Source of the DNA: Paracoccaceae bacterium
GTDB lineage: Bacteria; Pseudomonadota; Alphaproteobacteria; Rhodobacterales; Rhodobacteraceae
Length of the DNA stretch: 64,000 nucleotides
Direction: 5' to 3'
Assembly: GCA_027486345.1 (NCBI GenBank)
Contig: JAIXPH010000048.1
Coordinates: 186,001-250,000, forward strand
Part shown: positions 10,968 through 45,822 of the stretch, piece by piece
Layout: each line of letters starts with the position of its first letter
How positions within the stretch are numbered: the stretch's first letter is position 1
Made by a program: the position numbers and the translations under genes
Notes under the pieces: model-generated
Database searches by the model: none
What the model saw: only the letters and a program-made list of their open reading frames with translations
What the model was told of the DNA's origin: nothing

Positions 10968-11057
10968 CCCCCTTCCCCGTTGCTTAAATATCCCAGGGGG
11001 TGCGGGGGACTGGTCCCCCGCTGTTTTCGCGTGGGGCGGGGGACCAGTCCCCCGCGC
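10968..11057. repeat. AAATATCC-core palindromic repeat, copy 1
   Basis: Fills the gap between ybaK (start 10960) and the adh gene (end 11063). It contains CCTTCCCCGTTGC, then TTAAATATCCCAGGGGGTGC, then two nearly identical hairpins: GCGGGGGAC-TG-GTCCCCCGC (11002-11021) and GCGGGGGAC-CA-GTCCCCCGC (11036-11055), 9-bp stems each. The first ~54 bp match the copy at 32923-32976 (inverted) with only a few differences, and the core matches the copy at 35915. The double hairpin may also serve as a bidirectional terminator-like structure. Confidence 0.85.
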
Positions 11058-32922: not shown

Positions 32923-32976
32923 GCGGGGGGCCAGCCCCCCGCACCCCCCGGGATATTTGAGCAACGGGGAAGGGGG
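32923..32976. repeat. AAATATCC-core palindromic repeat, copy 2 (inverted)
   Basis: Read on the minus strand it is CCTTCCCCGTTGC, then TCAAATATCCCGGGGGGTGC, then a GCGGGGGGC/GCCCCCCGC hairpin; this matches copy 1 (10968 on) over about 54 bp with few changes. It lies just downstream of the GH25 gene stop (32995, minus strand). The hairpin spans about 32923-32942. Confidence 0.85.
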
Positions 32977-35914: not shown

Positions 35915-36001
35915 CCCCTTCCCCGTTGCACAAATATCCTCAGGGGGTGAATGGCTTTGCCCGCAAAGCCAGAGGGGGCGCGAGCGCCCCCCGACCCCCC
36001 C
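35915..36001. repeat. AAATATCC-core palindromic repeat, copy 3
   Basis: CCTTCCCCGTTGC, then ACAAATATCCTCAGGGGGTG as in copies 1 and 2, followed by different hairpins: GGCTTTGC-CC-GCAAAGCC (35953-35970) and GGGGGCG-CGAG-CGCCCCC (35974-35991). So the core is constant while the hairpins change. Lies in the 302-bp gap between the aldo/keto reductase start and the bmp stop, which otherwise holds only the bmp terminator. Confidence 0.85.
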
Positions 36002-41899: not shown

Positions 41900-44317
41900 T
41901 TACCCATGCCCGCGCACCCGATTGACCGCCGCCAACACCCGCTCTGCCGTGGCAGGGGCGTCCAGCGCGGGATAGGCCCCGTCGCCACAGGCCGCCACCG
42001 CATCCGACAACGCATAAAGCGCGGAAATCCCCAGCATGAAGGGCGGCTCACCCACGGCCTTGGATTTTCCGATGGAGTCCTCTCGGTTGGGACGATCCCA
42101 CAGCGCCACGTTGAACACGCGCGGACGGTCGGAACAGGCCGGGATCTTGTAGGTGCTGGGCGCATGGGTCGCCAAGCGCCCCTTGCCGTCCCACACCAAC
42201 TCCTCGGTCGTCAGCCAGCCTGCCCCCTGCACATAGGCGCCTTCGACCTGCCCGATATCCAGGATCGGGTTCAGGCTGGTCCCGGTGTCATGCAACAGGT
42301 CCGCCCGCAGGATGCGGTTTTCGCCCGTCAGGGTGTCAATCACCACCTCTGTCACCGCCGCACCATAGGCGAAGTAGAGGAACGGTCGCCCCTGCCCGCG
42401 CAGCCGATCCCAGGTGATCTTCGGCGTGGCATAAAATCCGGTCGAGGACAGCGACACCCGCGCCTGATAGGCCCAGGCGGCCACGCGGTCAAAGGCGTAT
42501 TCCTCGCCCGCGACCCGCACCATCCCGTCCTGAAAGCGCACCTTCTCCACCGGCACCTGATGCTTTTCGGCGATGAAGGCCGCCATCCGGTCCCGCACCG
42601 TCTCTGCCGCCGCCTTGGCCGCCATGCCGTTTAGGTCAGACCCGGAGGATGCCGCCGTGGCCGAGGTATTGGGCACTTTCGCCGTGTCCGTCGCCGTGAT
42701 CTTCACCGCTGCGGGATCGACGCCGAACACGCCCGCCACCACTTGCGCCACCTTCTTGAACAGACCCTGCCCCATCTCGGTCCCGCCGTGGTTCAAGAGG
42801 ATCGAGCCGTCCTGATAGACATGGACCAAAGCCCCGGCCTGGTTCAGGTGCGTCAGCGTGAAGGAAATCCCGAACTTCACCGGCGTCAGCGCAATCCCGC
42901 GCTTGAGCACCGGACTGCCCGCGTTCCACGCGGCAATCGCCGCCCGCCGCGCGCGATAGTCAGAGGTCCGCTCCAACTCCGCCGTCAGCTCATGCAGCAC
43001 GAAATCCTCAACCGGCATATGGAACGGCGTGGTCTGCACCGCCCCATCCGCCGCCAAAGCATGCGAGCCGACGGACATAGCCCGCCCGCGAGAAGTCAGG
43101 TCTCCTTCTCCTTGCCCTGTCTTCTCTGCGGAAATATCCTCGGGGTCCGGGGGTGAAGCCCCCGGGGCCTCCACCATTGCGCGGTAGAAATTCGCACGCC
43201 GCACGTCCAGCGGATCACGGCCAAGGGCATGGGCGATATGGTCCATCACCCGCTCAATCCCAATCACGCCCTGCGGGCCACCAAAACCACGAAAAGCGGT
43301 GGCAGAGGTAGTGTTGGTCTTCAGCCGGTGGCTTTCGATCCGCACCGAGGGCAGGTGATAGGCGTTGTCGGCGTGCAGCATGGCGCGGTCAGCCACGGGC
43401 AAGGACAGATCCATCGACCACCCGCAGCGGAAAAGATGGGTGAATTCGACCCCGGTCAGCTTGCCCTGATCGTCAAACCCCGCCCGATACAATATCCGGA
43501 GATCATGGCGCTTGCCGGTGATGACCATGTCATCGTCGCGGTCATAGCGCATCTTGCAGGGTCGCCCGGTGCGCGCTGCGGCCACCGCGCAGGCGATGGC
43601 CAGCCAGTTGCCTTGACTTTCCTTGCCACCGAAACCACCGCCCATGCGCCGCACTTCTACGCGTACCGCACTCATCGGCAGGTGCAGGGCATGGGCGACT
43701 TTGTGCTGAATCTCGGTCGGGTGCTGGGTGGATGACAGCACGACCATATCCCCACCATCCTGCGGCAGGCAGGCGGCGACTTGGCCTTCAAGGTAGAAAT
43801 GCTCTTGCCCACCGACCTCAAACCGTCCCTCGACCTGATGCGGGGCCTCTGCGATCGCTATGGCTGTGTCGCCCTTGGTCCAGATCACCGGGCCATTTTC
43901 AAACCGGCTGTTGGCGGCAAGGGCGTCGTCCACAGTCAACAGTGCTGGAAGTTCGCGATACTCCACCCGCCCAAGACGCGCGGCGCGGCGGGCGGCGTGG
44001 TGGCTTTCGGCGACGACGATAAAGATCGGCTGGCCGACAAAATGCACTTTGCCCGTGGCAACCAGCGGTTCATCGCCAAGCGAGGGCGAACAATCCGGCA
44101 CATGATCGAAATCCTCGGCCGCGTAGACCGCGACAACGCCGGGTGCTGCGCGGACGGCAGTCAAGTCCATCGACAGGATGTCCCCATGCGCGACGGTGGA
44201 CAGGCCAAAGGCCAGATGCAGCGCATTGCCCGGCAGGGGGATGTCATCGACATAGCGCGCTTGACCTGTGACATGCAGCGGGGCCGCGTCATGGGGAAGG
44301 GATTTGCCCATGCTCAT
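41900..44317 (-). CDS. xdhB: Xanthine dehydrogenase, molybdopterin-binding subunit
   Basis: 805 residues. With XdhA it oxidises hypoxanthine and xanthine to urate, passing electrons to NAD+. Motifs: [78 protein letters not shown] (conserved Arg), [19 protein letters not shown], and the active-site Glu in [19 protein letters not shown]. The Rhodobacter capsulatus subunit is about 777 residues; the extra length here is explained by a stretch at about residues 383-410 ([20 protein letters not shown] and on) that is translated from a palindromic repeat (43124-43166 region). Start overlaps the xdhA stop (ATGA). Confidence 0.95.
43124..43166. repeat. AAATATCC-core palindromic repeat, copy 4, inside xdhB
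   Basis: TCTGCGGAAATATCCTCGGG followed by the hairpin CCGGGGG-TGAAG-CCCCCGG (43147-43165). Same core and same hairpin side as the intergenic copies, but here within an intact reading frame; it encodes the [10 protein letters not shown] region of XdhB. Confidence 0.8.
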
Positions 44318-45822
44318 GGCTGCACCTCCAGCACCGAGACGGGAGTTCCGTTCAGGTCGTGGAAATAGCGTGTCAGCAGATTTTGCGCGGCGGTCAGGCG
44401 ATAGGCGGCACTGGCGCGCATGTCGGACAAGGGGGTGAAGTCATCGGCAAAGGCGGCGCGGGCGGTGGCGATGGTCGCATCGCTCCACACCTGACCGATC
44501 AAGGCGGCCTCGACCGCTGAGGCCCGTTTCGGGATACCTGCCATGCCGCCAAAGGCGATGCGGGCTTGGGTGACGATGCCATCCGTCACAGTCACGTTGA
44601 AACAGCCGCAGACGGCAGAGATATCCTGATCGAAGCGTTTGGAGAGTTTGTAGCACCGCAAAGCGGTCGCGTGTTCGGGGAAGGAGACCCCGGCCACGAA
44701 TTCCCCCGGCTGGCGGTCCTGCTTGCGATACTCAAGGAAGAAGGACTCAAGCGGGATCGACCGCATCACGTCGCCCCGGCGCAGGTGCAGCGTCGCCCCC
44801 AAGGCAATCAGCGCAGGCGGGCCATCGCCGATGGGCGAGCCGTTGGCGATATTGCCGCCAATGGTCGCGGCGTTGCGGACCTGCTCACTGGCATAGCGGC
44901 GCAGAAGTTCCCCGAGCGAGGGCAGCGTCGGGGCCACCGCCGCCCGCAAGGTGGCGATGGTGACGCCCGCGCCGACATGCAGCATGCCGCCCTGCCGTTC
45001 GATCTTTTGCAGGTCCGTGACCCCGTTCAGGAAGGCCACCTTCGGCAGGTCGCGCATCTGTTTGGTGACCCACAGCCCCACATCCGTGGCCCCGGCGATC
45101 AGCGTGGCGTCGGGGTTGGCCTGATACCATTCCGCCAGTTCGTCGCTGTTGCTTGGGCGGAAGCCGTGCAGGGGGGTCTCGGCCCCCCCTCGGCCTGCGG
45201 CCTCTCCCGGCCCGATGGCATGGCCATCGGGCGTTCGACGCTGACGACCTTCCACCGGAAGGTCGTCCGGGCGCGTCTCACCCCCCGAGGATATTTGACC
45301 AGAGACAACGGACGCAGACGTAAGCGCTTTTTGGTCTGCCGCCATCCAATCCGGCACGGGCGCTTTGGCAGCGGCCTCGGCGGCGCGGATGATCGGGGCG
45401 TAGCCCGTGCAGCGGCAAAGGTTGCCTGCCAGCACATCATCGTGGTCCCTGCGGCCCTGCATCTGACCCACCGCCATCGAGACGACAAAACCCGGGGTGC
45501 AGAACCCGCATTGCGATCCGTGGTGGTCCACCATCGCGGCCTGCACCGGGTGCATTTCGCCCTTGGGGCCAGAGAGGCCCTCAACCGTGCGAACCGCCTT
45601 GCCGTCAAGTTGCGGCAGGAACAGGATGCAGGCGTTCAGCGCGCGCGATCCGGCCGCATCAGTGACCATCACCGTGCAGGCGCCGCAATCGCCCTCATTG
45701 CAGCCCTCTTTCGTGCCGTTCAGGCCGCGCCCCTCGCGCAGCCAATCGAGAAGCGTGCGCGTCGGCGGCTGATCTGCCACGCGCACCGGCGTTCCGTTCA
45801 ACAGAAACGCGATCCCGGTCAT
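44314..45822 (-). CDS. xdhA: Xanthine dehydrogenase, small subunit (2Fe-2S and FAD)
   Basis: 502 residues. Two [2Fe-2S] clusters: [13 protein letters not shown] (Cys41, 46, 49) and [10 protein letters not shown] plus [11 protein letters not shown] (Cys105, 108, 136, 138). The FAD domain starts at [15 protein letters not shown] (about residue 241) and ends at [18 protein letters not shown]. Takes electrons from the molybdenum site to NAD+. Between the second cluster domain and the FAD domain is a polar, Gly/Arg-rich segment of about 45-50 residues (about 172-222) that corresponds exactly to a repeat element in the DNA (45171-45304); the R. capsulatus subunit is about 462 residues. First gene of the xdhABC-transporter run. 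Confidence 0.94.
45171..45304. repeat. AAATATCC-core palindromic repeat, copy 5, inside xdhA
   Basis: The core appears as CCCCCCGAGGATATTTG (45281-45297). Beside it are three hairpins: GGGGGG/CCCCCC (45171-45188), CCCGATGGC-ATG-GCCATCGGG (45211-45231) and ACGACCTTCC-ACC-GGAAGGTCGT (45244-45266, ten perfect base pairs). The whole element stays in the xdhA frame without a stop codon. Confidence 0.85.

Follow-up and report, generated by a model that had tools for sequence, protein, structure and literature searches.

The segment at 45171-45312 (+ strand) of the 64,000-nucleotide stretch of DNA analysed here (the window) lies in frame in xdhA and antisense to the gene, and it is very likely a translated copy of a palindrome present in high copy number in Rhodobacteraceae, housed at a site that is old and whose content has been renewed from the genomic pool of copies. 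The host gene xdhA (44314..45822, - strand) encodes the 502-aa small subunit of xanthine dehydrogenase with 2Fe-2S and FAD domains, and its product matches NCBIfam TIGR02963 at 588.8 bits (cut-off 467) and chain A of 1JRO/2W3R. The window XdhA aligns with the 462-residue 2W3R/1JRO chain in two blocks, residues 3-174 and 218-501, which places the segment between the iron-sulphur and the FAD parts. Covariance model R1 matched 45171-45312 with 44.9 bits (E 3.7e-11), and translation of 45169-45312 in the xdhA frame gives 48 residues. An earlier sequence-only reading had described a palindromic repeat unit at 45171-45304, inserted in frame in an inter-domain linker; this range lies within the xdhA ORF with no stop codon in that frame, the three hairpins were found with stems of 6 bp (G/C-run), 10 bp (GCCCGATGGC/GCCATCGGGC) and 11 bp (GACGACCTTCC/GGAAGGTCGTC), and the copies in the family, together with the frame, support the description. 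The same reading gave about 45 residues and an excess of 40 over the 462-residue protein, which is approximately correct, but 462 residues are not an element-free length, because the solved XdhA has a short version of the element peptide. The element may be mobile, as we infer from comparing its copies. No Rfam family matched at E ≤ 1 in the window between 41800 and 46100, and a known Rfam RNA was rejected as the identity of the element.

The length of the xdhA copy in the window is due to a nested 74-bp palindromic module (45209..45282, + strand), which has two perfect hairpins of 10 and 11 bp, so that the copy consists of two elements, the common short one and the rarer module within it. The 3′ part of the short element (45283..45312, + strand) is made up of the end of the C-run, the core GAGGATATTT at 45287-45296 and the tail GACCAGAGACAACGGA. 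Near-full copies of the module number eleven and come from 7 of the 19 genomes of the genus; an eighth genome has a weaker copy of full length. In most of these 12 contexts, read by eye, the module is enclosed by or abuts a repeat of the family of the short element, and TCACC(C) flanks it in several copies. A reading by eye of the xdhA linkers of the genus, covering all but L145 and L147, revealed a short, element-free linker in L144, the short element in L141, L142, L143 and L146, the long element in the window and its 92% relative L132, and an apparently decayed version in L133-L140. The window XdhA therefore probably grew stepwise, from a linker to a linker with the short element and then to one with the nested module.

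A second in-frame copy, absent from the sequence-only reading, was found in the same operon, inside xdhB (41900..44317, - strand), which encodes the 805-aa molybdopterin-binding subunit of xanthine dehydrogenase (TIGR02965, 1214.4 bits). This copy (43116..43163, - strand; covariance match of 36.5 bits, E 1.0e-8) is sense to the gene and encodes a 15-residue peptide in a loop that is variable among relatives in the alignment and precedes a 12-residue stretch. Further copies in the window are located at 35916..35991 (- strand, 65.9 bits, E 2.9e-17), 32926..32974 (+ strand, 44.6 bits, E 4.8e-11) and 10970..11019 (- strand, 37.2 bits, E 6.7e-9).

The repeat unit is about 50-75 bp long and consists of a hairpin made by a G-run and a C-run, in many copies another hairpin, then a second C-run, the core GAGGATATTT and a tail that varies, GAGCAACGGGGAAG and GAACAGAGAAAAC being examples. 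The genome also contains subfamilies that have other cores, among them CCCCGGGATATTT and CCGTGGGATATTT, and several different tails (10970-11019, 32926-32974 and elsewhere in G000). In the 4.08-Mb genome of the window, CCNNNGGATATTT occurs 134 times against once for its reversed pattern, and CCNGAGGATATTT 53 times against none. A covariance model built from 38 copies of the same genome, all from outside xdh, gave at least 148 genome matches at E ≤ 0.1 (150 candidates scored). When the 134-bp segment itself was compared with the genome, one near-full second copy (86%, C63:48274-48409) was obtained between two ORFs, along with 43 more partial matches at E ≤ 1, two of which are the inverted arms of both near-full copies. 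The second C-run equals the first in length in 42 of 57 copies, against a mean of 26 in shuffles that ignore kinship; with equal lengths the G-run could pair with either, and RNAalifold gave the outer pairing.

Coding potential was assessed with a score trained on 30 window ORFs, the xdh genes possibly among them, and applied to the flanks of 139 of the 148 matches, the other nine having no match to the core pattern. For flanks in one open frame the xdhB copy ranked first (0.20) and the xdhA copy second (0.12), with the next at 0.06 (n=139); 16 of the 139 had no spanning open frame, and by this score the remaining copies look intergenic. Of 137 copies, 29 have convergent, 54 tandem and 3 divergent flanking genes, and for 51 the flank call is unclear on one side or both; these counts suggest that the repeats are located at the 3′ ends of genes. 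Sixteen close pairs were observed in the genome G002 among the first 100 of 109 places, all tail to tail and 15 of them spaced 52-62 bp apart. Few divergent flanks and tail-to-tail pairs are as expected of 3′-end elements or two-way terminators. Each of the six frames of the element is open in 65 to 132 of 137 copies.

The distribution of the element was analyzed at the level of genus, family and class. The pattern CCNGAGGATATTT was detected in all 19 genus genomes, with copy numbers ranging from 1 (G016) to 167 (G015). Among 142 genomes sampled from the class, it was present in 35, with 0-3 copies except in the genome of the window and none in the one other member of the family among the 142, so a wider reach over the class is not supported. 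Peptide profiles at E ≤ 0.01 detected the sense reading in 81 and the antisense reading in 83 of 149 family genomes, intergenic copies included, while plasmid searches with the element peptides returned 0 and 1 records, the one being unannotated. No such element was found in print for this order in the open-access literature.

The concentration of copies in the xdh genes is pronounced. Among 80 named Rhodobacteraceae loci (692 kb), 60 covariance matches were obtained at E ≤ 0.001, with 26 in xdhA, 29 in xdhB and 5 elsewhere. The copies occupy the XdhA linker (about residues 159-200) in 26 of the 80 loci and the XdhB loop (about residues 374-429) in 29 of the 76 loci that reach it, with both occupied in ten; no match was found in the rest of xdhA or xdhB, and the five others are spread over 402 kb (Fisher p 7e-16). 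Weaker matches (E 0.003 to 0.1) in xdhA or xdhB of further loci were left out of these counts. A core-motif matrix at threshold 14, scanned over all loci but L077, gave 21 matches in 8.8 kb of xdhA linker and none in the 101 kb of xdhA outside it, together with 5 xdhB matches beyond the loop limits, which could not be set in every locus. The aligned XdhA linker is strongly variable across the 80 loci and often carries ISSGG...RGADSPP, the peptide obtained when the element is translated antisense. Within the genus, an xdhA match at E ≤ 0.001 was present in 6 of 17 loci, that of the window included. An insertion unique to the lineage of the window, which the sequence-only reading had proposed to look for by aligning XdhA, is thus rejected, since the same element lies in the family and genus linkers just counted; its insertion claim itself is supported, given the variable linker of the relatives, those shared copies and the many copies in the genome.

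At the corresponding places, the structures 1JRO/2W3R, which we take to be the Rhodobacter capsulatus enzyme (listed as xanthine dehydrogenase), carry the peptides AFTLAQLSSGVRGQTAP in chain A and RGGLSAPPSPPEPIATKK in chain B. For the former, a match is AFILAQLSSGVRGQTAP in L072, where the encoding DNA scores as an element at E 1.3e-10; judged from its peptides, the crystallised enzyme, presumably an active one, very probably carries both element segments. Element peptides in frame were also observed in BchB and in CobN, each in two genomes (L356, L360, L363 and L372), and bchB and cobN are rarer hosts than xdhA and xdhB. The two bchB copies share one position, ahead of the C-terminal part, and TIGR01278 is passed by both proteins. 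The fragment in L372 has CobN as its best match, below the cut-offs as the sequence is incomplete, and the host in L363 is probably CobN as well, by its likeness to L372. Among 30 profile-matched loci, 10 overlap XdhB (with the peptide seen in the coding frame in 7) and 1 holds BchB, whilst 20 long-frame places comprise 9 in XdhB, 1 in BchB and 2 in CobN, the other 8 being judged shadow frames from their coding scores. Of 84 elements over the core threshold in loci L327-L446, 16 passed the coding test, 6 in xdhA and 10 in xdhB; the BchB and CobN cases fail it, which means that the test misses true cases.

The orientation of the in-gene copies is constant, with all 26 xdhA copies antisense and all 29 xdhB copies sense, and a single frame is used by 25 of the 26 xdhA copies and all 29 xdhB copies, the xdhA copy of L127 being different (tied core positions in L123 xdhA and L097 xdhB were re-read by eye, and both were set to the usual frame). 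By arithmetic from the open-frame counts, open frames alone would yield the usual frame in about 15% of cases for xdhA and 10% for xdhB. As the two sets are translated from opposite strands, there is no coding reason for their DNA to agree, and yet the tails of xdhA and xdhB copies score a mean of 13.5 within genomes against 10.75 between them (15 genomes, p = 5e-5, the permutation minimum). Five of the 15 genomes belong to the genus of the window, and leaving out four of these (11 genomes) did not alter p. Seven of the 15 genomes account for the agreement (scores 14-17); the scores of 10-12 obtained for the window and for its four relatives in the genus lie near the mean found between genomes. 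The two L102 copies, one in each gene, share 68 of 70 positions in spite of being read from opposite strands, and L061 has an intergenic copy with nearly the same tail as its xdhA copy. These comparisons of tails and copies indicate that the xdhA and xdhB segments are one element and not the product of convergent coding. Between the domain edge and the core lie 9 to 19 residues, depending on the copy (25 of 26 xdhA copies measured). The XdhA linkers of L088 and L120 contain, in frame, a different palindrome of the GTAG type, of which L120 has another copy upstream (L120:1707).

On a tree of XdhA and XdhB from which the insert columns were removed, the presence of the xdhA copy needs at least 14 changes, 12 of them forced by well-supported branches, against 22.9 in shuffles; the labels are therefore clustered, and some copies have been inherited. 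The xdhB copy needs 22 changes against a shuffle mean of 24.0, and 56 of 200 shuffles were as low (77 rows, with three loci short of the loop excluded; still 22 when these were scored as lacking it). We favour the reading in which the xdhA linker and the xdhB loop would be old landing sites, whose content may have been repeatedly lost and then renewed from the copy pool of the same genome, either by new insertion or by gene conversion, which are indistinguishable in these data. Both places would tolerate the element owing to their position between or outside folded domains; the element frequently lacks stops, lengths that keep the frame would be selected, and the translated element would form a polar, Gly/Pro-rich segment in the XdhA linker. 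The constant orientation and near-constant frame point to old residence and, with so many frames open, fit poorly with repeated random insertion, while the frame of L127, the agreeing tails, the varied spacing and the different palindrome in L088 and L120 point to renewal. The copies compared showed neither a transposition event nor a polymorphism between strains, nor any clear target-site duplication. A more far-reaching version, which we put forward tentatively and rate a little short of probable, is that the palindrome pool keeps rewriting these linkers, so that the xdhA and xdhB copies, which encode unrelated peptides from opposite strands, evolve in concert with the pool, and that a second palindrome can nest in the first and lengthen the protein.

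The strongest alternative, which is possible but which we consider rather doubtful, holds that each gene received one ancient insertion that was inherited vertically with many losses, the tails agreeing by gene conversion alone. It would account for the constant orientation, for a frame that differs once in 55 copies where open frames alone make the usual one infrequent, and for the spread of presence over the tree. However, the L127 copy in another frame, the variable distance between domain edge and core, the palindrome of a different family in the L088 and L120 linkers, the later arrival of the 74-bp module and the hardly clustered presence in xdhB all stand against it. That the in-gene copies were kept for a function, whether through hairpins formed by the RNA or DNA of the xdh operon or through a benefit of the linker itself, seems unlikely to us. 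Such a function would fit the concentration in xdhA and xdhB, where all 16 coding-test passes among the 84 elements above also fall, and the stems of at least 7 bp, which are present in 81% of the 26 copies in xdhA and in 90% of the 29 in xdhB, compared with about 7% of control windows taken from other parts of xdhA; but recent copies would be expected to have intact hairpins too, other host genes are under-sampled by peptide profiles built from xdh peptides, and 54 of 80 xdhA and 47 of 76 xdhB sequences have no match at E ≤ 0.001 (weaker matches exist in some), from which the element appears dispensable. A chance resemblance of a GC-rich linker to the intergenic repeats is scarcely credible and was rejected, since, in spite of the low complexity and common G/C runs of GC-rich gene linkers, the reversed patterns gave 0 or 1 occurrence, the core matrix and the covariance model gave nothing in the control sequence of xdhA and, for the latter, xdhB, and the opposite-strand copies of L102 are nearly identical.

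Protein-coding palindromic elements are, in the account of PMC2229807, known mainly from Rickettsia and Wolbachia, for which genome decay is, in our view, a ready explanation. Here the same phenomenon is met in a family of which many members are free-living, in a molybdenum enzyme of solved structure, at the same two places across many genera. The way in which selfish DNA turns into protein thereby becomes open to test, as does the question whether repeat turnover drives the evolution of linkers, and the element offers an explanation for the differences in XdhA and XdhB length among relatives.

Three groups of known elements were compared. Like REP sequences, the element forms high-copy palindromes with few copies at divergent gene starts and with inverted pairs in one genome; the REP trait of extragenic palindromes in inverted pairs was found in G002, though some copies lie in genes, and the GTAG-type palindrome in the XdhA linker of L088 and L120 recalls the GTAG-tagged REPs. 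Unlike REPs, it has copies that are coding in frame, and inspection of copies by eye showed neither a GTAG nor a CGTC tag at their ends. A Y1_Tnp (PF01797) RAYT gene exceeded the 23-bit cut-off in none of the 19 genus genomes (21.3 bits in G007; the search control was positive in 5 of 14), so a RAYT-mobilised REP is not supported. With MITEs (ERIC/RU-1, YPAL/RU-2, RU-3 and the Coxiella QMITEs) it shares the nature of a small, non-autonomous repeat, and in-frame fusions of MITEs have been reported (PMC2229807, PMC5896051). No terminal inverted repeats with target duplication were recognised by eye around the short element, and no parent transposase or mobilising enzyme was found, the systematic search being that for Y1_Tnp in the 19 genus genomes.

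The Rickettsia palindromic element (RPE) is 105-146 bp long and occurs in many unrelated genes (PMC2229807, PMC10969869); PMC2229807 names coding palindromes of Wolbachia beside it and describes a carrier protein, guanylate kinase, that can stay active. The present element differs in being about 50-75 bp long and GC-rich, in ending with GAGGATATTT and a tail, in its residence in Rhodobacteraceae and in having the in-gene copies found mostly at two places of one operon. Likened to the RPE by description and not by sequence, it was filed apart, also on account of its different host order and of that concentration at two places. It may nevertheless work like the RPE, whose short palindromic repeats occupy intergenic DNA and, in frame, genes for conserved proteins (PMC2229807), as do those described here, and the sequence-only reading was right to name that element as the closest parallel.
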